DNA of 32,030 bases, taken from IMG/VR virus record IMGVR_UViG_3300047564_001323, positions 1-32,030 of that record, one strand, 5' to 3'. A model generated the notes under the pieces. It was given only the letters and a program-made list of their open reading frames with translations. It was not told the DNA's origin and did no database searches. Each line of letters opens with the position of its first letter. The stretch's first letter is position 1. Positions 11,419 through 26,715 of this stretch are shown here, piece by piece. The position numbers were made by a program, and so were the translations under genes. The stretch comes from a virus.

Positions 11419-13916
11419 GTTTTTACACAAACGTTCAACTGGTCGGAGACGACCTTCTCTATCTTGGATACGAAGAGGGACCTGGTGGGTTGCTGGAGCG
11501 TATCCAAAGAAAGATGAAGTTCTCTCCGACTCTTTTTGTCGTTACCGATAAGCAGACTACGCATAAGACCCTGGATGGTCGTTATGCCAAACCTGTAAAG
11601 TTTGAGTCTGTTCGCGAAGCTCGTCAGTTCATCGATAGATACCGTGACGTGGAGGGATTTGAAGTCCATGGGTATGACCGTTTCTTATACCAGTTCATCT
11701 CGGAGGAGTTCCCAGGAGAAGTTGAATATAATCTTAAGAGTCTTAAGATTACGTCTTTGGATATTGAAGTTGCATGTGAGAATGGTTTCCCTAACGTGCA
11801 GGAGTGCGCTGAACCGCTTCTGTCGATTACAGTCCAGGACTATACCACCAAGAAGATTCGTGTATGGGGGACGCGCCCGTACCAGACGGATCGTAAGGAT
11901 GTTGAGTATATGTTGTGTGACGATGAAGAACATCTGCTCCGTTGTTTTCTGGCTTATTGGTCAACTTCGTTTCCAGATGTGCTCACGGGATGGAATGTCG
12001 AACTGTATGATATACCGTACATTTGTGGACGTTTGGAACGTCTGTTCGGAGAAAGAGAGATGAAGCAGATCTCCCCGTGGGGAATTGTCCACCGCGAGGA
12101 GATGGAAATTAAAGGAAGAAAGCAAATCATCTTTAACATCTACGGCATTAATGTCCTCGATTACCTTGATTTGTATAAAAAGTTCACATACACCAACCAA
12201 GAATCGTATAGATTGGATCATATAGCCTATGTAGAATTGGGACAGAACAAATTGGACCACAGTGAGTTTGAGAACTTCAAGGAGTTCTATACTCGCAACT
12301 GGCAAAAGTTCATCGACTACAACATCAAGGACGTGGAACTCGTTCTTCGCCTTGAGGAAAAAATGAAGTTGGTTGAGCTTGCTATTGCTCTTGCATATGA
12401 CGCTAAGGTGAACATGAAGGATGTGTACTTTCAAGTACGCATGTGGGACACCTTGATCTACAATTTTCTTCGCGATAAGAATATTGTTGTTCCTCCCGCT
12501 AAACGTAGCGATAAAAGCGAAAAGTACGCTGGAGCATATGTCAAAGAACCGATTCCTGGGCGTTATGATTGGGTGGTTAGTTTTGATCTTAATAGCTTGT
12601 ATCCCCATCTTATTATGCAGTACAACATCTCGCCCGAGACACTCACCCAAAGGCGACATCCCACTGCGACTGTTGAAAGGATCTTAAACCAAGAGATTGA
12701 ACCTGATCCTCGTTATTGCCTGTGCGCTAATGGTTCACAGTACCGCAAGGACATTCATGGTTTTCTGCCAGAGATGATGCAGAAGATCTACGATGAACGT
12801 GTCCAGTCTAAGAAGCTAATGCTTATGGCAAAGCAGGAGTATGAAAAGAATCCTTCTCAGGAATTGACCAAAGCAATTAGTAAGTACAACAACATCCAGA
12901 TGGCGAGAAAGATCCAGCTTAACTCTGCCTATGGTGCTATCGGTAACCAATACTTTCGTTACTATAACTTGGCGAATGCTGAGGCAATTACCCTTTCGGG
13001 TCAAGTCTCAATTCGCTGGATTGAAAACAAGATGAACAAATACCTGAACAAGGTACTAAAAACTGATGGAGTTGATTATGTTATTGCTTCTGATACTGAT
13101 TCAATTTACCTCAATCTGGGTCCTCTGGTTGACTGTGTATACCAAGGAAGAGAGAAAGATGATGAGAGCATCGTTGGGTTCCTTGACAAGGTGTGTAAGG
13201 TGGAACTTGAAAAATATATTGAAAATTCTTATTCGACCCTTGCACAGTATGTGAATGCATACGAGCAGAAGATGATGATGAAACGAGAGAACATCGCCTC
13301 TAGTGGAATCTGGACTGCAAAGAAGAGATACATTCTCAACGTGTGGGATAGTGAGGGTGTTCGCTACAAGGAACCCAAGCTCAAGATGATGGGCATCGAA
13401 GCAGTCAAGTCATCTACACCTGCCCCTTGCCGCCAGGCAATTAAGCAAGCCCTGACAATTATTATGTCAAAAACTGAAGATGACCTGATTGAATTTATAG
13501 ATAACTTTAGGGATGAATTCAACTCATTACCTCCCGAAGACATCGCATTCCCGAGGTCTGTAAATGGGCTCAGTAAGTTCAAGGCGCACGGAACAGTGTA
13601 TACAAAGGGAACCCCTATACATGTTCGTGGAACGCTGTTATATAATTTTTATGTTGCTCAAAAGAAGTTAGAGTATAAGTATCCTCTAATTCAAGAAGGT
13701 GAGAAGATCAAGTTTTTGTATTTGCGCCGTCCAAATAAAATCAACGAAAACGTCATCTCGTTCCTCAACACATTTCCTCTGGAACTGGAGTTGAAAAACA
13801 GTATTGATCTGGATGCCCAGTTCCAAAAGGCATTCTTGGATCCTTTACAAATCATCCTGAATGTGATAGGATGGAAGACGGAAAAAGTAACTAGCCTCGA
13901 ATTTTTGTTCTCATGA
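11415..13916 (+). CDS. gp43: gp43 family B DNA polymerase
   Basis: 833 residues in one uninterrupted frame. The 3'-5' exonuclease Exo I motif is SLDIEV (Asp116, Glu118). Polymerase motif A is DLNSLYP (391-397), motif B is KIQLNSAYG (about 499-507), and motif C is DTD (560-562). Slightly shorter than T4 gp43 (898), as is usual in cyanophages. Overlaps of 4 nt link it to the short paralog before it and to uvsX after it. No intein or homing insertion is visible at motif C. Confidence 0.97.
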
Positions 13917-17238: not shown

Positions 17239-17528
17239 GTAAGTTTATTATGTTCACCAAGGATTCTTGTGGTCCTTGCGGTTTAGTTAAACGATATATT
17301 AATGCATTAAAAGATGAACGCACTAGCGTCATCGAAGAAGTCTTCCTCGAAGACTTTAGTGATGTTCCCATTCCTCAAGAGAATCTAGATCTCGCCAAGA
17401 AGTATGGTGTAACCGCTACTCCAGTTCTGGTTATTGCTGATGAGAATGGTGAGTTGCTAGAGACTTATACTGGTGGTATGGGAATCACTCAAAACATTCG
17501 CAAGTTGTTTGATAAGTATGGCGTGTAA
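17235..17528 (+). CDS. thioredoxin/glutaredoxin-like protein (CGPC)
   Basis: 97 residues. The active-site motif is CGPC (12-15) after strand FIMFTKDS, the cis-proline motif is ATPVLVI, and a Gly-Gly turn follows (YTGGMG). The CGPC centre is thioredoxin-like while the length is glutaredoxin-like. Its likely partner is the ribonucleotide reductase NrdA encoded at 27704, as NrdC serves in T4; this is inference. It overlaps mazG by 4 nt and the following oxygenase gene by 11 nt. Confidence 0.88.
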   Translation: MSKFIMFTKDSCGPCGLVKRYINALKDERTSVIEEVFLEDFSDVPIPQENLDLAKKYGVTATPVLVIADENGELLETYTGGMGITQNIRKLFDKYGV

Positions 17529-18156
17529 CTTGCATACATTTGCTCCCCTGGTAGTTTACGAAACTGAACTGCCAGGGTTTTTGCCTGCAATCTATAAGTC
17601 ATATGATGACCATAAGTTTACTACTGATGATGGAAAGATTACTGGAGAGCTTGCTGGTAAAGTATTAGTGCATCAAGATCATAGACTGCACAACTTCTTC
17701 AAAGCAATAGCGAGAAAGACAAAGGATTATCTTTCTCGTTTTGATATGGACACAGATGCCTTTGAAGTGAACATTACAAAGAGTTGGTTTGGTATCTGTG
17801 AACCTGGTCAATCATTTCCGATGCACTATCATTCATGTGCTCACATCAGCTTTGTATATTATGTGCAACCAACTGGTGATCCAATTGCATTCCATGTTGA
17901 GAATCCAAACCAGTGGTTCGGTGCAGCATTCTCTTTTACTGGGCAGCAGAATAGTCTCAACACTAGGGACTATGTGATTGAACCAAAGGCAGAGCACCTC
18001 TTACTATTTCCTGGTTCACTAGAGCACTACACTGTGCCAGTTGACAGACTGCACACTCGCATCTCCCTTGCTGGGGACATCGTGCTAACCTTGAAGAAAC
18101 ATAAGGTTGGCAGTGAGGCAGGATTACTTTCTCCCCGCTTTTGGAAACGATTCTAA
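17518..18156 (+). CDS. 2OG-Fe(II) oxygenase family protein
   Basis: 212 residues from the ATG at 17518. The double-stranded beta-helix carries the expected ligands: FPMHYHS (His103, His105), then HISFVYYVQP, and LLLFPGSLEHYTVP with distal His170. Arg181 in TRISLAGDIV is the likely 2-oxoglutarate binder. This fits the phage 2OG-Fe(II) oxygenase family with an HxH...H pattern. The substrate is unknown. A strong intrinsic terminator hairpin lies within codons about 10-22, so expression probably depends on read-through or coupling. The stop codon is part of a CTAAATA late motif inside another hairpin. Confidence 0.82.
   Translation: MACNLHTFAPLVVYETELPGFLPAIYKSYDDHKFTTDDGKITGELAGKVLVHQDHRLHNFFKAIARKTKDYLSRFDMDTDAFEVNITKSWFGICEPGQSFPMHYHSCAHISFVYYVQPTGDPIAFHVENPNQWFGAAFSFTGQQNSLNTRDYVIEPKAEHLLLFPGSLEHYTVPVDRLHTRISLAGDIVLTLKKHKVGSEAGLLSPRFWKRF
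17546..17582 (+). terminator. strong intrinsic terminator inside the start of the oxygenase gene
   Basis: CCCTGGTAGTT (17546-17556) pairs with AACTGCCAGGG (17567-17577): 10 Watson-Crick pairs and one T-G, then TTTTT at 17578-17582. It would end the 43-uvsX-41-mazG-trx transcript. It lies only 28 nt into the next open reading frame. Confidence 0.75.
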
Positions 18157-18176
18157 ATAGCTGGGGAGAATTTTTT
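18129..18176 (+). terminator. terminator hairpin with late promoter in its loop
   Basis: TTCTCCCC (18129-18136) pairs with GGGGAGAA (18163-18170), extended inside by GC/GC across a bulged T, and TTTTTT follows (18171-18176). The 26-nt loop is long and holds the CTAAATA motif and the stop codon of the upstream gene. The right arm GGGGAGAA is also the Shine-Dalgarno for the ATG at 18179. Confidence 0.6.
18153..18159 (+). promoter_or_regulatory. late promoter CTAAATA fused to a stop codon
   Basis: CTAAATA, with TAA 18154-18156 ending the oxygenase gene. It lies 19 nt upstream of the ATG at 18179, the expected position for a late promoter of the next unit. Confidence 0.6.
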
Positions 18177-18178
18177 GT

Positions 18179-19351
18179 ATGGTCGCACTCAACTGGACGC
18201 AATTTGAAAAGCGTCTACGTCCCAATCTAAAAACTTTCTGGCAGATGGTTATTAACAACCGTCGCTTTGTGCTGGAGAAAGCAGTGAAGGATTGGGATGG
18301 CACTACTAAGTTAACTGAGGGAATTCAGTTGACTGGTATTGTGTATCAGACAAAGAAGATGGAAAGGGGAAGAGAAATAAAAGATGACAGAGAGTTTTTC
18401 TGTCAAAACTATTCTTCCGCTGATGACTTTGCTGACGCAGTAATGCATCGCCTTCCTTTAAAAAATCTTGATGGTAAGAAATTGAAACTCATCTTATATG
18501 ATGAGACAACATATGTTCCATTTGGGGCACTGTTTAAATCAAGTGACTTTGGTGGTGGTAGCACTAGTCTTGATCTTGGACAGCTCAAGTGGGGTCATCT
18601 GGGATTCTTTGCTGAGCGTTGCAACTTCAGACTTCTTCCTCCTGGTAAACAGATTGAACTTTACTGGTTGAATGACTTCAACGATTTGGTTACTAGAGAG
18701 CGTGAGAAGTTAATGAAGAGCGGTGAAGATGTTTGCCTTGACTTTGAGATTGCTGGGGTAACAGTTCATAATGTTATCGGTGCGATGGGAGCTCCTGATG
18801 CATCCAAGGATCCCAAAGCGGATATTGTGTTTGTCACTTGCAAAGATGGATGCCTAGAGTACACTGGATTCGCATCTCTCAAGGACGGTACGGATGTTAA
18901 ACACTTCCAGCAGTGGGGTGGTCTTTCGGCATTTAAAGACCATGAGGAAGTTAAGCAATTTGCAGAAGATCTGAAGCAATTATATCCTCAAGGTATCTCT
19001 GCAGCAGGTGGTGGTGTTAACGTCGGTAGAGAGATCGAAGATAGAAAGATGAAGATTGAAGCTATCTATGGTCCAAGTTATCGAAGAGGTCATTACAATT
19101 CTGAATCTGTTCAGTTTGTAATACAAGGTACACCACAAAGAATTCAAAAGCAGGGTAACGTATATAAATTAATCACTGGATCTACCCATCACTACAGCGA
19201 TAGTGTTGCTCATCAAAATGAACTGATGACTGGGAATACTAGACCTGTATTCATGGCAAGAGCAGATAATAATCGAAACGATCTTGGTGTTCCTAAGACC
19301 AGGATATTCATTTATTCTGCTGGTGGTCGTACAAATTGGAATTGGATCTGA
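18179..19351 (+). CDS. unknown late protein, possibly a PD-(D/E)xK-like nuclease
   Basis: 390 residues with a good Shine-Dalgarno (GGGGAGAA, 18163-18170). I recognise no family by name. The middle part has KADIVFVT (Asp215) followed by a short hairpin and FASLKDG (Lys235), then HFQQWGGLS. This beta-hairpin spacing is seen in some restriction-type nuclease cores, but the usual Glu/Asp before xK is Ser here, so the idea is weak. The C-terminus (VFMARADNNR ... FIYSAGGRTNWNWI) looks compact and conserved. It heads a three-gene cluster with a ligase-like and an NMNAT-like gene; the stop and next start share one base (TGATG). Confidence 0.75.
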   Translation: MVALNWTQFEKRLRPNLKTFWQMVINNRRFVLEKAVKDWDGTTKLTEGIQLTGIVYQTKKMERGREIKDDREFFCQNYSSADDFADAVMHRLPLKNLDGKKLKLILYDETTYVPFGALFKSSDFGGGSTSLDLGQLKWGHLGFFAERCNFRLLPPGKQIELYWLNDFNDLVTREREKLMKSGEDVCLDFEIAGVTVHNVIGAMGAPDASKDPKADIVFVTCKDGCLEYTGFASLKDGTDVKHFQQWGGLSAFKDHEEVKQFAEDLKQLYPQGISAAGGGVNVGREIEDRKMKIEAIYGPSYRRGHYNSESVQFVIQGTPQRIQKQGNVYKLITGSTHHYSDSVAHQNELMTGNTRPVFMARADNNRNDLGVPKTRIFIYSAGGRTNWNWI

Positions 19352-20565
19352 TGGCAAACGTAGTTCAACTCAAGCACTTAGAACATTTAGAAGATGAAAT
19401 GCTGAACTACGGTGTGGAGGGATGCCATGCTGCAGTTAGATTCATGAGAGAGTTGATTAAGATGCTTGGCACTAAAAAGGGATCTGGTTATCTCCAAACC
19501 AAATGGGATGGATCTCCTTCTATTGTTTGTGGTATAGATCCAGATACTAAAAACTTTTTCGTTGCAAACAAATCTGCTTTCAACGTGGGAACACCAAAGA
19601 TTGCTTTTAACTATGAAGAAGTAGATTCTTTATATGGAACTGGCGGACTTGGTGCTACTTTAAAAACCGCACTGAGATATTTTTCTCAGATGAATATCAA
19701 AGGAGTGGTGCAGGGAGATGTTATTTTTGTAGAAGATAAAGTAAAGACAGAGGTTATTGATGGTGAAAGGTTGGTAACGTTCAGACTTAATACACTGACC
19801 TATGCTGTCCCATACGATCAACCTTTAGCTCAACAAATTCTGAGAGCAAAAATAGGAATCGTATTCCATACTCATTATGAGGGAGACAAGATAGAAAGCA
19901 TGAGAGCTCTTGCAGGAGCAAATGTACCTAATAATAATGATCTTCCAGAAGTCGTTCAGTTATTTAATGATACCCCACTAGCTGATACTGCTATTGGGCA
20001 AACAACGTTGTCTGCATTTGCTAGAAACGTAGAGATAATCAATAGGATGTGTTCTATCTGTGGCAAGTTCTTGGATAACCTTGTCTCAAACATGGGAACA
20101 ACAGGTAATGCAAAATATCATATTGCTTCATATCTCAAGCAGTTTTTTAATGACGAAGTTAAAAAGCAAAACACAATTGATCCAACCAAAGCTTTCAAAG
20201 ATCTCGGTAAGTTTTATCACACGAAGATGACTGCCGTGATTGATAAGTTAAAATCTCCTGCAGCAAAAACTGATAAGAGAAATTTGATGTATGCAGGTCT
20301 TAAGTATCTTGAAGATAACGAAAGAGAATTTAAGGCTATGCTTGCCCTATATAAAAAGATACAAGAAAATAAACAACTTGTTATTGATGAACTTGATCGT
20401 GTAGAAAATCTTGGTCCCATCAAGTATTTTGTAAAGACTTCAGATGGGTACAAGGTAACTAATCCTGAGGGATATGTTCTTCACCTTGATGGAGACATGA
20501 TCAAGTTAGTGAACCGTTTGGAATTCTCGTATAACAATTTCACGGTAGAGAAGGACTGGAAGTAA
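19351..20565 (+). CDS. RNA/DNA-ligase-like nucleotidyltransferase (DUF6267-type phage protein)
   Basis: 404 residues from the ATG at 19351; an upstream in-frame ATG at 19336 overlaps the previous gene. Residues 48-58 contain LQTKWDGSPSI, matching nucleotidyltransferase motif I KxDG, with Lys51 the candidate AMP-accepting residue. VVQGDVIF (119-126) suits motif III. The extreme C-terminus has EGYVLHLDGDMIKLVNR, which resembles motifs IV (EGYV, as in T4 Rnl1) and V (IKLV). About 230 mostly helical residues lie between III and IV, longer than usual. I believe relatives are listed only as a domain of unknown function. The activity is inferred from motifs and needs a structure comparison. It is followed with no gap by the NMNAT-like gene. 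Confidence 0.75.
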   Translation: MANVVQLKHLEHLEDEMLNYGVEGCHAAVRFMRELIKMLGTKKGSGYLQTKWDGSPSIVCGIDPDTKNFFVANKSAFNVGTPKIAFNYEEVDSLYGTGGLGATLKTALRYFSQMNIKGVVQGDVIFVEDKVKTEVIDGERLVTFRLNTLTYAVPYDQPLAQQILRAKIGIVFHTHYEGDKIESMRALAGANVPNNNDLPEVVQLFNDTPLADTAIGQTTLSAFARNVEIINRMCSICGKFLDNLVSNMGTTGNAKYHIASYLKQFFNDEVKKQNTIDPTKAFKDLGKFYHTKMTAVIDKLKSPAAKTDKRNLMYAGLKYLEDNEREFKAMLALYKKIQENKQLVIDELDRVENLGPIKYFVKTSDGYKVTNPEGYVLHLDGDMIKLVNRLEFSYNNFTVEKDWK

Positions 20566-21144
20566 ATGGAAATAGTAGATTACAAACCAGTCTACTTTAC
20601 ATTTGGCAGGTTCCAACCATGTACACATGGTCACGAATCAAACTTTAGAGCTTTACAATCGATTGCTAAACAAGCTGATTGGTTTATCATCCCATCTCCA
20701 ACATCGGGTGATGATGATAATCCCCTTTCAATTGATACTAAAATTAGATACATGAAGAAAGCTCTTCCATGGGCAAGCAAGCACATCATAAGTCCATCGT
20801 TGGTAACGAGAGCAGGTAGAAACAATCCAGTTGTTGCATCTATACAAAGTTTGCAGGACATGGGATATGACAAATGCTACATGGTAGTTGGTAGTGATAG
20901 GGTAAATGCTTTCAAGTGGACTAAGACGGGAAACGGCGGGAAGGATTATTCCTTTTATGATTTTGATATCGTTAGCTCTGGAGAGCGCGATGCTGACGGT
21001 GATACGTTTGCTATCTCTGGAACTAAGATGCGCCGAGCTGCAATCGCTGGAGACTTTGCAACATTTAAATCTGGTATGCCAAAGGCGATGAGCGAAGGAG
21101 ATGCGCGGAATCTCATGAAGGAGATCGCTTCTTTTTATAAATAA
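20566..21144 (+). CDS. nucleotidylyltransferase, NMN-adenylyltransferase/cytidylyltransferase-like
   Basis: 192 residues. The HxGH signature lies in FTFGRFQPCTHGHESNF (His21, His23), and the C-terminal ISGTKMR motif (150-156) corresponds to ISSTxxR. YMVVGSDRV is the central strand. These define the HIGH-type nucleotidyltransferase superfamily that includes NMN adenylyltransferase (NadM) and cytidylyltransferases. NAD synthesis or nucleotide-linked modification are both possible. It starts directly after the stop of the ligase-like gene. Its stop codon is the end of a TATAAATAA sequence that forms the next late promoter. Confidence 0.85.
   Translation: MEIVDYKPVYFTFGRFQPCTHGHESNFRALQSIAKQADWFIIPSPTSGDDDNPLSIDTKIRYMKKALPWASKHIISPSLVTRAGRNNPVVASIQSLQDMGYDKCYMVVGSDRVNAFKWTKTGNGGKDYSFYDFDIVSSGERDADGDTFAISGTKMRRAAIAGDFATFKSGMPKAMSEGDARNLMKEIASFYK
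21136..21143 (+). promoter_or_regulatory. T4-consensus late promoter TATAAATA
   Basis: TATAAATA is an exact match to the T4 late consensus, 23 nt before the ATG at 21167 of the long probable virion protein. It overlaps the end of the NMNAT-like gene. Confidence 0.7.
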
Positions 21145-21166: not shown

Positions 21167-22663
21167 ATGCATAGTTTTAGCGAGTTTCATAAGAAGGCAC
21201 AGGTTGCGGAAACGAATATCAACCGCGACAAATTTTATCGTAATGAAATTTACAAGATTGGTGAGTGGATTCTTACTGAAAGTGGAAAGGTTGGAAAGAT
21301 TATTCGCCGTGGACCAAACTACGTTCTCTGCTTGACCGCAGAAGAAACGACATTTAGATCCTGGATTACTGATATCAAAGAAGTCTTTGAGATTGGTACT
21401 GATGCGTATAGAGAATATCTTCAGTCTCTTACTCCTGGCGAAAAGAAGCAACCGTTTTCGAAGATTAAAGTAAAACAAGTCATTCCCCCAGACCCTAAAA
21501 AAGATAAGATGGAAAACAACGAGTATGTAGCAGCGGTGGTAAACGCCCTGTCCAAAAAAACAAGTGGTGTTTTATCCGCTAACGTAAAGAGCGTTGATGA
21601 AACCTGGCGCTATGATAACTCAGCGAAGATGGCAAGCAAAGATCCTAAGGGTCTTGGTGCTGCTGGCGTCGGCGGCGGTGACGCACCTGGCATGAAGATG
21701 GCAGAACCAGCAGGAACTGCAGGTAAGCCAAAGGTCAAGAAGCCTATGCACTCTTGCGCTACTAAGGTTGAGCACTCTGAGTGGGGAGAGGGTAACTGCA
21801 TTAAAGAAATGCACACTCTCGATGAAGAGGGTCACATCACTCACTATGATGTTATGTTCGAGCATGGTCTTGAGCAAAATGTTTCCGTTGCTGCTCTGAA
21901 TGTTCTCGTTAGCGAGATGCATGAGCACGCTATCAACGTTGAAAAAAATCAGGAAGTTCTTGAAGCAAAGAAAGCAAAGAAGCTTGATCCAGTTGGAAAG
22001 GAAGATGGTGATGTAGATAATGATGGTGACTCTGATTCATCTGATTCTTATCTGAAGGCACGTCGCGCTGCTGTTTCTAAGGCGATGGGCAAAAAGATGA
22101 AGGAAGAGGTCGAGGAGATCGAAGAAAAGAAGGGACTGTATGCTAACATTCACGCTAAGAGAGAGCGTGGCGAGCGTCCAGCAAGACCAGGTGAAGAAGA
22201 TTATCCAGCAAAGGATGCTTTTAAGAAGTCAGCTAAAACTGCTAAGAAGGAATCAGTAGAACTGGATGAGGTTGCCCCTCCAGGTGCTAAGGCAGAGCGC
22301 ATGGTCAAGCACATCAAGAAGTCATATGCTAAGGATGGTAAACTGACCGATAAGGAAAAGTCCATCGCCTATGCTACTGCTTGGAAAAATGCCAAGAAGA
22401 CTGAATCTTATGGCATGGAAGATGATGAGGACGACAAGAAGGAAAAGAAAATGAGCAAGGATGCCAAAGCCAAGCACGAAAAGGGTGAGAAGAAAATGGA
22501 TGAAGGCATGAAGCAAGCTCGTGCTAACGTCGGTGCTTCTACCTGTTGGGATGGTTACGAAGCAAAAGGAACCAAGACCAAAGGTGGTAAGGAAGTTCCT
22601 AACTGTGTAAAGAAAGAGCACACCTTCTCTGATTGGCGCAAGGAGATTGCTGAAAAAAAGTAA
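21167..22663 (+). CDS. large Lys/Glu-rich late protein, probable virion or capsid-associated protein
   Basis: 498 residues from the ATG at 21167; the upstream in-frame TTG is unlikely. After a compact N-terminal domain (MHSFSEFHKKAQ ... YREYLQSLTPGEKK) the protein becomes low-complexity and charged. An EF-hand-like acidic loop DVDNDGDSDSSD lies near 281-292, then KGLYANIHAKRERGERP, an ELDEV segment with GAKAERMVKHIKKSYAK, and a C-terminal MKQARANVGASTCWDGYEAK block. These blocks recur in marine phage proteins I have seen annotated as structural or hypothetical. A T4-consensus late promoter precedes it. Its end carries an A AAA AAG slippery heptamer and the signals of a -1 frameshift. Confidence 0.82.
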   Translation: MHSFSEFHKKAQVAETNINRDKFYRNEIYKIGEWILTESGKVGKIIRRGPNYVLCLTAEETTFRSWITDIKEVFEIGTDAYREYLQSLTPGEKKQPFSKIKVKQVIPPDPKKDKMENNEYVAAVVNALSKKTSGVLSANVKSVDETWRYDNSAKMASKDPKGLGAAGVGGGDAPGMKMAEPAGTAGKPKVKKPMHSCATKVEHSEWGEGNCIKEMHTLDEEGHITHYDVMFEHGLEQNVSVAALNVLVSEMHEHAINVEKNQEVLEAKKAKKLDPVGKEDGDVDNDGDSDSSDSYLKARRAAVSKAMGKKMKEEVEEIEEKKGLYANIHAKRERGERPARPGEEDYPAKDAFKKSAKTAKKESVELDEVAPPGAKAERMVKHIKKSYAKDGKLTDKEKSIAYATAWKNAKKTESYGMEDDEDDKKEKKMSKDAKAKHEKGEKKMDEGMKQARANVGASTCWDGYEAKGTKTKGGKEVPNCVKKEHTFSDWRKEIAEKK

Positions 22664-22836: not shown

Positions 22837-23535
22837 ATGAGAAAAATTTGGCATGAGGATAGCATTCAAACGCTATCCTCTTTTCGTAATCTTCAGACAT
22901 ATTATCAAGATATCATCCCAGAAGTTCTAAGTTTCGTTGAGGATAATCAACGGATACTTGATGAATGGCGCTTAGATAAATGGGTTGATGATCGTAATTT
23001 AGGTAGGGTAAAGTTGTGGGATGGTGATTGGAGAGTTATCCCATTTCCTATTAACTGTGTTGGAACCACTGCCACTGATGAGGACTTTGAACTCAGTGAG
23101 ATGGTTACCTTTACGAAGCTATTTAATACTACAACGGAAAGATGTCAAGAGGTTCTTCCTTTAATAAAGCAAAGTTTTATTAAGACTTGCCCGCTTACCT
23201 TTAAATACTTACAGGAAGATATTGATAACAAACTTTTAAAGTCTGCTACCATCTCACGTCTTTCTCCAGGTACAGTTATCAATCCTCACTGTGGAGATAT
23301 CGATTCACTCCGTATTCACTTTCCTGTCGTTGCAGACCCTGGCGCATGGATTAAAGTCAGAGGCAGAAGAAGAGTATGGAATGTCGGTGAGGTATTTGCA
23401 TTCAAAGATCATGACAAACACTGGGTTAAGCACGAGGGAGATCATGATCGGATTATTGTCATTCTCGATTATAGTATTGAACAGTTAACAAAACATGGTA
23501 TCTTTCTCTCGGAAGAGGAGGAAGATGCTATATAA
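22837..23535 (+). CDS. aspartyl/asparaginyl beta-hydroxylase-like oxygenase
   Basis: 232 residues from the only usable start (ATG 22837). The C-terminal half matches the Asp/Asn beta-hydroxylase fold. RLSPGTVINPHCG has ligand His151, followed by SLRIHFPV, WNVGEVFAFKDHDKHWVKH with His195, and DRIIVILD with Arg205. The acceptor protein is unknown. A terminator hairpin covers codons 7-16, so either the start is further downstream at a non-standard codon or expression is attenuated. It begins three bases after the preceding small ORF's stop. Confidence 0.8.
   Translation: MRKIWHEDSIQTLSSFRNLQTYYQDIIPEVLSFVEDNQRILDEWRLDKWVDDRNLGRVKLWDGDWRVIPFPINCVGTTATDEDFELSEMVTFTKLFNTTTERCQEVLPLIKQSFIKTCPLTFKYLQEDIDNKLLKSATISRLSPGTVINPHCGDIDSLRIHFPVVADPGAWIKVRGRRRVWNVGEVFAFKDHDKHWVKHEGDHDRIIVILDYSIEQLTKHGIFLSEEEEDAI
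22855..22884 (+). terminator. intrinsic terminator within the first codons of the hydroxylase-like gene
   Basis: GAGGATAGC (22855-22863), loop ATTCAAAC, GCTATCCTC (22872-22880), then TTTT. The stem is 9 bp and perfect. It is well placed to end the late transcript of the large virion protein, but it lies 18 nt inside the next open reading frame. Confidence 0.75.
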
Positions 23536-26325: not shown

Positions 26326-26715
26326 ATGGACGCACAATCAGCTATTATTGATAGGCTAGAAAGAATAGTAGCTTCACTACAGGATAACTCAATTAAGATG
26401 GGTCAACTGTTAGCAGTCCATCAAGAAAAACTAGACAAGCAAGAAAAAGCAGACGATATTCTTTTTCAAAAGATCGATCATCTGCATAATGATCTTCATC
26501 AAAAGACAGACGAGATTAAAAAGGGATGCGAGCGTGACATCAAACTTGTTGATGAGCGCATAAGAGTTCTTGAAAGAAAACTCTGGAGCATCGCTGGAGC
26601 TCTTGCTGTCCTTTCGTTTATGGTTTCCGATGCTGGTATTAGAATTCTTAAACCCATCTTGACTCCTTCCCCCGTCAGTGCTAGGATTCATACAGAGACG
26701 AAGTTGCCTAGATGA
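26326..26715 (+). CDS. coiled-coil protein with one transmembrane segment
   Basis: 129 residues. Residues 1-85 are a charged coiled coil (IIDRLERIVASLQDNSIKMG and LDKQEKADDILFQKIDHLH). A hydrophobic segment of about 20 residues follows (LWSIAGALAVLSFMVSDAGI), then a short Pro-rich tail. The topology suggests a membrane-anchored helper, for example a holin- or spanin-like role, but no lysis gene is adjacent, so this is conjecture. It overlaps the primase start by ATGA and has a late-like motif upstream. Confidence 0.78.
   Translation: MDAQSAIIDRLERIVASLQDNSIKMGQLLAVHQEKLDKQEKADDILFQKIDHLHNDLHQKTDEIKKGCERDIKLVDERIRVLERKLWSIAGALAVLSFMVSDAGIRILKPILTPSPVSARIHTETKLPR

Follow-up and report, generated by a model that had tools for sequence, protein, structure and literature searches.

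In this study, we describe a compact three-gene set in a 32,030-base linear virus record from IMG/VR (IMGVR_UViG_3300047564_001323; the whole record is hereafter called the window). The set encodes a restriction-endonuclease-like protein (gene 1), a ligase-like protein of the DUF6267 family (gene 2), and a HIGH-superfamily nucleotidyltransferase (gene 3). Our best explanation, which we hold with about as much confidence as doubt, is that it represents a late operon of nucleic-acid end-processing enzymes that are head cargo in many of the window's far-group relatives. The operon, the conservation of its promoter, the predicted folds, the invariant residues, the association of genes 2 and 3 as neighbours or in one protein, and the capsid-targeting sequence (tag) of the relatives were all computed here. 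Two groups of loci were compared: a near group (L001-L090, L095, and L096), found with the window's own proteins and including some named cyanophages, and a far group (L091-L094 and L097-L212), found with alignment A1 and including named phages. These are search groups, not host groups. The three genes lie on the plus strand at 18179-19351 (390 amino acids), 19351-20565 (404 amino acids), and 20566-21144 (192 amino acids), and abut one another without gaps, the ATG of gene 2 sharing one base with the stop codon of gene 1. The open reading frames (ORFs) are thus present as an earlier, sequence-only reading of the window had described them, and the genes are confirmed as real and conserved.

Gene 2 belongs to Pfam family DUF6267 (PF19782, E 2.4e-107), the sole Pfam family matching its product (P0002) and one for which neither Pfam nor PHROGs gives a function. 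The motifs that had led the sequence-only reading to propose a ligase-like nucleotidyltransferase are all there, i.e., KWDG with Lys51 (codon 19501-19503), QGDVIF with Asp123 (19717-19719), EGYV with Glu373 (20467-20469), and IKLV with Lys385 (20503-20505). At each of the positions Lys51, Asp53, Gly54, and Asp123, 188 of the 189 aligned DUF6267 proteins show the same residue and the remaining one has a gap, and Glu373, Gly374, and Lys385 are kept in all 189; the two residues singled out beforehand, Lys51 and Glu373, are therefore invariant among the homologues. The divergent DUF6267 proteins of S-CREM2 (295 amino acids) and S-SCSM1 (294 amino acids) keep all of the ligase residues, with KIDG and KMDG as their first motifs. 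The structure model, built from 63 sequences (predicted local distance difference test, pLDDT, 90.6; predicted template modelling score, pTM, 0.88), is consistent with the ligase fold that had been anticipated. When VIA-align was run on the top 1000 chains from Foldseek, eleven Naegleria RNA ligase entries led (best Z 8.1, root-mean-square deviation (rmsd) 3.9, 183 residues aligned), followed by T4 Rnl1 (Z 7.2), REL1 (6.7), Rnl2 (6.6), and then DNA ligases with values of 6.2 and lower. Ligase chains made up all of rows 1-33; those in rows 28, 30, and 32 come from end-joining complexes, and their numbering is compatible with ligase IV. The fold claims for genes 1 and 2 rest on VIA-align together with which rows lead, and by the program's own caveat a Z of 7 to 8 may reflect a common arrangement. 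In the model of gene 2, a helical insert (about residues 217-352) precedes motif IV and no OB-type domain is seen; the helical stretch is shortened in the short-form DUF6267 members, which retain the catalytic residues.

Some results weigh against a ligase-like assignment. The acidic residue of motif III is Glu in known ligases, and in DUF6267 it is the invariant Asp123. Foldseek alone found nothing below E 0.28 for the model in the PDB, and hhalign comparisons of DUF6267 with T4 Rnl1 (E 0.028, over 20 columns at motifs IV-V) and with Rnl2 (E 0.27) were not significant. Sequence searches of solved structures returned ribosomal and coiled-coil rows, so that ligase homology by sequence alone failed. 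With these two hhalign values, membership in the T4 Rnl1/Rnl2 family is not supported at the level of family sequence similarity. As these family-level links fail, we place DUF6267 in the covalent nucleotidyltransferase superfamily only; on its residues and predicted fold, gene 2 is a covalent nucleotidyltransferase.

Gene 3 is, judging from its domain and motifs, a HIGH-superfamily nucleotidyltransferase. It matches phrog_3041 (E 1.7e-50) and scores 20.8 bits against PF01467, just under the cut-off of 21, with relatives above it at 28.5, 29.7, 30.4, and 22.3 bits. The S-SCSM1 homologue ORF91 has no Pfam match at 0.01 and matches the gene-3 profile at 4.4e-72. The protein had been likened to nicotinamide mononucleotide (NMN) adenylyltransferases (NMNATs) on the strength of HxGH and ISGTxxR motifs. 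The first motif is actually TxGH (T-H-G-H), with Thr in 135 and Gly and His in all of 139 sequences; the second is present as ISGTKMR, and we read it as the Ser-x-x-Lys-x-Arg pattern (139, 136, and 139 of 139). Although the best NCBIfam match is nicotinate/nicotinamide nucleotide adenylyltransferase, gene 3 reaches only 20.5 bits against TIGR00482, where the cut-off is 112.45, and it has the TxGH motif; its identity as an NMN adenylyltransferase in the literal sense is not supported.

For gene 1, which matches phrog_13937, the weak nuclease-like core noticed earlier is borne out by the model, the structural matches, and the invariant residues. The model has a pLDDT of 89.6, and VIA-align matches its residues of about 156-383 to MspI (Z 7.3, rmsd 4.1, 174 aligned) and HinP1I (Z 6.8, rmsd 4.0, 173 aligned), the next row reaching only 3.4; Foldseek alone gave no significant row against the PDB. 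All 21 sequences compared share Glu160, Asp215 (codon 18821-18823), Ser233 (18875-18877), Lys235 (18881-18883), and Gln245, and with them a PD-(D/E)XK-like pattern in which Ser233 replaces the acid two residues before the Lys. These results support a C-terminal domain with an MspI/HinP1I-type restriction-endonuclease fold and a Ser-x-Lys motif. The family diverges fast: among 170 genes directly upstream of DUF6267, single linkage ties 108 to gene 1, and the final profile 66.

The partnership of these genes extends well beyond the window. A tblastn search with gene 2 found 322 of 50,697 public phage records, and one with a short-form DUF6267 found 470, of which 456 are named Synechococcus, Prochlorococcus, or 'Cyanophage'. 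In S-RSM4, P-HM1, P-HM2, P-RSM4, and S-SM1, DUF6267 is followed by a cytidylyltransferase beside replication genes; where labels are given, the former is T4-GC71 and the latter T4-GC190. Of the distinct DUF6267 genes with enough flank, all 38 in the near group and 63 of 77 in the far group have a gene-3 family member no more than 2.5 kb downstream; the distance is at most 60 bp for 37 and 11 of them, respectively. A match to the gene-1 profile no more than 1.5 kb upstream is present for 33 of 62 near-group and 21 of 95 far-group genes. A short ORF often stands between DUF6267 and gene 3 in the far group, and a single cluster accounts for 38 of 55 of these ORFs. Whole-record searches showed that S-CREM2 and S-SCSM1 each encode one DUF6267, located away from gene 3. 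In addition to being neighbours, genes 2 and 3 are fused in some phages: they form a single protein in L209 (635 amino acids), viral 'cytidyltransferase-like' proteins of 591, 599, and 915 amino acids match the gene-2 model at E <= 0.001, and phrog_455 is matched by both gene 2 and gene 3. The co-occurrence on which the sequence-only reading depended is therefore found for genes 2 and 3.

Other enzymes occur near DUF6267 in some relatives. HAD phosphatases are present in 7 of 206 loci by motif, and HAD-type proteins match phrog_415, a 'polynucleotide kinase', at E 2e-9 and 1.9e-4, while P-loop kinases of relatives match phrog_505, likewise a 'polynucleotide kinase', at E 1.5e-10 and 2e-6. HAD-type proteins with a capsid-targeting-like N-terminus are encoded at L114:7944-8555, L106:6384-7001, L098:5608-6210, and L152:6330-6944; two of this set were tested, and both weakly match a polynucleotide-kinase PHROG. 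The P-loop kinases, of the zeta/AAA_33 type, are either free or fused behind a gene-3 domain (L196:8185-9462, L123:3185-5251, L126:6870-9059, L205:4594-5277, L193:8224-9478, and L192:1239-2508); the Pfam scan covered those of L196, L205, and L193:8224, the last being an adenylate kinase with a targeting-like N-terminus. Such kinase and phosphatase genes fit end healing.

The sequence-only reading had also placed the set behind one late promoter. A late-promoter-like octamer, TCTAAATA, lies upstream of gene 1 on the plus strand at 18152-18159, and its CTAAATA (18153-18159) ends 19 bases from the gene 1 ATG. By count within the window, the motif is at chance level (4 CTAAATA found versus 4.4 expected; ATAAATA, with 7 versus 4.9, is not above chance either). 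By comparison, however, the promoter is supported, as [AC]TAAATA occurs within 70 bp 5' of gene-1 homologues in 51 of 55 distinct upstream regions (31 of 32 in the near group and 20 of 23 in the far group), these regions being distinct but from related phages, some closely so, and not independent. Ahead of gene 2, the same motif is found in none of 58 near-group and 18 of 113 far-group regions, and ahead of gene 3 in none of 61 and 13 of 74; the corresponding figures for other ORFs are 84 of 377 and 93 of 712. This distribution fits a late operon headed by gene 1, and the late timing assumed earlier is borne out by this conservation.

The suggestion that the set is packaged comes from the relatives' N-termini. 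According to PMC9026906, internal proteins of T4 reach the head via a 10-residue N-terminal sequence that is processed after L/I-x-E, with residues 4 and 7 serving targeting and residues 8 and 10 processing. The pattern used here is matched by IPII and IPIII in the T4 record and missed by IPI and Alt, so cargo is undercounted by it. Our counts leave out DUF6267 ORFs below 290 amino acids, duplicate sequences, and ORFs running off the locus start, and accept a later Met within 40 residues as the start. In the non-redundant far group, the tag is carried by 62 of 96 DUF6267 proteins (mean of 0.2 for shuffled N-termini; 48 in the exact T4 register), 42 of 72 gene-3 proteins (shuffled mean 1.2), 14 of 24 gene-1 proteins (0.1; 12 in exact register), 26 of 77 proteins encoded immediately upstream of DUF6267 (0.1; 20), and 35 of 736 other ORFs (2.1; 30). 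A first, looser count had given 75/185, 49/139, and 14/61 against a background of 54/1201. Methylophilales phage Melnitz-2 is among the phages with a tagged DUF6267. In 54 of 69 tagged DUF6267 proteins, the predicted cut would fall four residues ahead of the conserved H..H motif, which means that the tag stands ahead of the start of the window's protein.

Several further genes with this pattern were seen in passing. Right after gene 3 in a near-group locus, L078:7226-7588 encodes a protein beginning MKSYSEFISEA, whose register is exactly that of T4 IPII and IPIII; a partial tag in the near-group gene after gene 3 (18 of 49 versus 63 of 518, redundant) is a weak signal. The pattern also occurs in L100:3733-4533, which stands directly before DUF6267, has a D...ExK look by eye, and has no Pfam match, in the HD-domain protein of L178:13150-13722, and in L099:7131-7586, which by eye looks ParB-like.

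Evidence that such proteins occur in virions is taken from the literature, which reports tagged gene-3 proteins and one gene-1-type protein. The T4-GC190 (gene-3 type) protein was detected in S-SM1 virions (PMC3037559), S-CREM2 ORF154 (gene 3) was found in virions with three unique peptides (PMC10665884, Table 3), and S-SCSM1 ORF91 (gene 3) was reported in virions (PMC9602691). All three proteins (S-SM1 gp190, S-CREM2 gp154, and S-SCSM1 ORF91) carry the tag in the exact T4 register. The gene-1-type protein is S-SCSM1 ORF90, which was linked to gene 1 via a six-round profile that had drawn in ORF90-like relatives (E 6e-31); an earlier gene-1 profile did not match it, and the final one did not match S-SM1 gp188 or S-CREM2 gp155, gp156, and gp160. 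S-SM1 gp188 shows a D...SxK pattern by eye only. In S-SCSM1, five consecutive genes around gene 3 (ORF89-ORF93, L281:7358-12836) are all marked as virion proteins, and among four of them checked, the strict tag is present only in ORF91.

Other observations count against head packaging as the role of the set. The near group is nearly without the tag (DUF6267 0 of 20, gene 3 1 of 18, gene 1 0 of 21), and it is absent from the N-termini of the window's three proteins. Only 8 of 72 far-group gene-3 proteins have it in the exact T4 register, and the pattern was spotted before it was counted. S-SCSM1 ORF90 is marked as a virion protein in its record, yet is untagged, so that either the tag is not the sole route or carry-over occurs. 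The untagged DUF6267 proteins of S-CREM2 (gp87) and S-SCSM1 (ORF257) are, respectively, absent from the virion proteins in Table 3 of PMC10665884 and not marked as a virion protein in the record. Overall, tag and virion detection agree for five of six proteins checked. This agreement, with untagged DUF6267 unreported, speaks against packaging of untagged cyanophage DUF6267 proteins, including that of the window.

On the basis of these results, we infer self-adenylylation, sealing, and, for tagged proteins, injection. Gene 1 would be the restriction-endonuclease-like nuclease of the pathway. In gene 2, Lys51 would be charged with adenosine monophosphate (AMP), which would then be passed to a nucleic-acid 5'-phosphate end, and gene 3 may belong to this pathway too, where it might provide the AMP donor or recycle it. 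In many far-group relatives, the tag would direct the proteins to the prohead and be removed there by the prohead protease, and the proteins would later be injected with the DNA. Late timing would then mean cargo for the next infection. The sequence-only reading had taken late timing as an argument against a general replication ligase; the timing itself holds, but in tagged relatives next-infection cargo would explain it better, and the window's proteins are untagged. That these are packaged is doubtful; their place of action may be the producing cell, and there is a weak suggestion that they ride with the product of the next gene (MHSFSEFHKKA...). It is also conceivable, albeit on the unlikely side, that far-group heads carry an injected kit for cutting, healing, and sealing that works before phage gene expression, e.g., in mending incoming DNA or undoing nuclease-based defence. 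This kit would comprise the restriction-like nuclease, the new ligase family, and the HIGH nucleotidyltransferase, to which some phages would add P-loop kinases and HAD phosphatases.

Different roles for the same enzymes have to be considered. As the nearest folds of gene 2 are those of RNA ligases, it might reseal tRNA or other RNA cut by host nucleases, in the manner of T4 Rnl1 with PseT, and the HAD phosphatases and zeta/AAA_33 P-loop kinases near DUF6267 in some relatives are what an end-healing set needs. However, few loci contain such kinases and phosphatases, the resemblance of gene 1 is to DNA restriction enzymes, and the Rnl1/Rnl2 profile comparison is not significant, and we find RNA repair unlikely. 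The tight pairing of a ligase-like enzyme with a HIGH nucleotidyltransferase within 60 bp in the near group, as well as their fusion, would also suit a pair linked by nicotinamide adenine dinucleotide (NAD+), in which DUF6267 takes AMP from NAD+ and frees NMN, and gene 3 remakes NAD+ from NMN and adenosine triphosphate; alternatively, gene 3 might merely restore NAD+ drained by defence. The best NCBIfam match of gene 3 is in line with this, and phage NAD+ synthesis with HIGH nucleotidyltransferases is described in PMC7824862. Nevertheless, gene 3 lies far below the NMNAT cut-offs and has TxGH, and no NAD+-ligase-type domain was identified, which leaves the NAD+-linked pair quite improbable. 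Least probable of all in our view is that the ligase fold serves to attach nucleotides to proteins, or to virion parts as caps, instead of sealing nucleic acid. Late expression, the helical insert, and the lack of a visible OB-type domain in the gene 2 model would agree with such a role, but the neighbouring gene 1 has a predicted nuclease fold and no observation indicates a protein target.

The cargo half of the explanation could fail independently, if the N-terminal pattern were due to chance or to an unrelated helix and the virion detections to carry-over. Carry-over is named as an alternative by two author groups in their proteome reports (one being PMC9602691), an untagged protein was also detected, and the window is without the tag. 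On the other hand, the enrichment goes well beyond shuffled N-termini and other ORFs, T4 IPII and IPIII match the pattern, all three virion gene-3 proteins checked are tagged, and the two untagged DUF6267 proteins are not reported. We therefore regard a mistaken tag as rather improbable, and continue to favour a late operon of end-processing enzymes that are packaged in many far-group phages.

Both its order of genes and its nearest matches indicate that the window comes from a T4-like marine myovirus of the cyanophage type. Before the set, family matches locate a UvsX-like recombinase gene (starting at 13913), a DnaB-like helicase gene (15449), and a 2OG-Fe(II) oxygenase gene (17473-18156); an aspartyl/asparaginyl beta-hydroxylase-like gene (22837-23535) also lies near it. 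By analogy with S-RSM4 and P-HM1, primase and ribonucleotide reductase genes should come next (ORFs at 26712, 27695, and 29970). The gene directly following gene 3 on the plus strand (21167-22663, with its ATG at 21167 and an N-terminus of MHSFSEFHKKA) encodes a 498-amino acid protein carrying a domain that S-SM1 has fused behind gene 3, and is a possible, unproven member of the set. Its product has a C-terminal CWDGYEAKGTKTKGGKEVPNC segment, shared with the long gene-3 proteins of L093 and L094, and a PVGKEDGDVDNDGDSDSSD stretch resembling one in S-SM1 gp191. PADLOC gave no match for P0001, P0002, P0003, and P0012.

As a family whose fold is predicted, whose lysine is invariant, and whose partners are constant, DUF6267 is directly testable. 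The tag offers a possible explanation for why cytidylyltransferases appear in the virion proteomes of cyanophages, where two author groups were unable to distinguish them from carry-over, and a sequence rule by which injected proteins of marine T4-like phages might be listed. Our searches of the literature, preprints not covered, turned up no publication dealing with DUF6267 or with the targeting of these proteins to the head. Already known are the fold, the principle of targeting, and the presence of a cytidylyltransferase in virions; the combination and the ligase-like architecture are, to the extent of these searches, new.

Comparison with known systems shows where the set departs from its closest counterparts. 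DUF6267 shares with the RNA ligase of Naegleria gruberi (NgrRnl), those of T4 (Rnl1 and Rnl2), and TbREL1 the nucleotidyltransferase fold, predicted in its case, and the order of KxDG, an acidic motif III, EG, and the motif V Lys. The spacing is similar as well: K-x-D agrees, the motif IV Glu and motif V Lys are 12 residues apart in DUF6267 and 14 in NgrRnl, and the motif V Lys is followed by 14 and 13 residues, respectively, to the alignment end (NgrRnl numbering from PDB titles). In contrast to these ligases, DUF6267 has no significant Rnl1/Rnl2 profile match, Asp in motif III, the helical insert before motif IV, and, in many members, a capsid-targeting tag. The relatives' proteins resemble T4 IPII and IPIII in N-terminal pattern and late expression, but their cargo would be an enzyme set, and the window's own proteins are untagged. 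Similarly, gene 1 is like MspI and HinP1I in the predicted fold of its C-terminal domain and in the invariant Asp and Lys, and unlike them in its extra N-terminal domain and in the Ser at the acid position, which is Asn in MspI and Gln in HinP1I. Finally, gene 3 has the domain and motifs of HIGH-superfamily NMNAT, PPAT, and cytidylyltransferases, and differs from them in scoring below the NMNAT equivalog level, in its TxGH, and in being fused to or beside a ligase-like enzyme.

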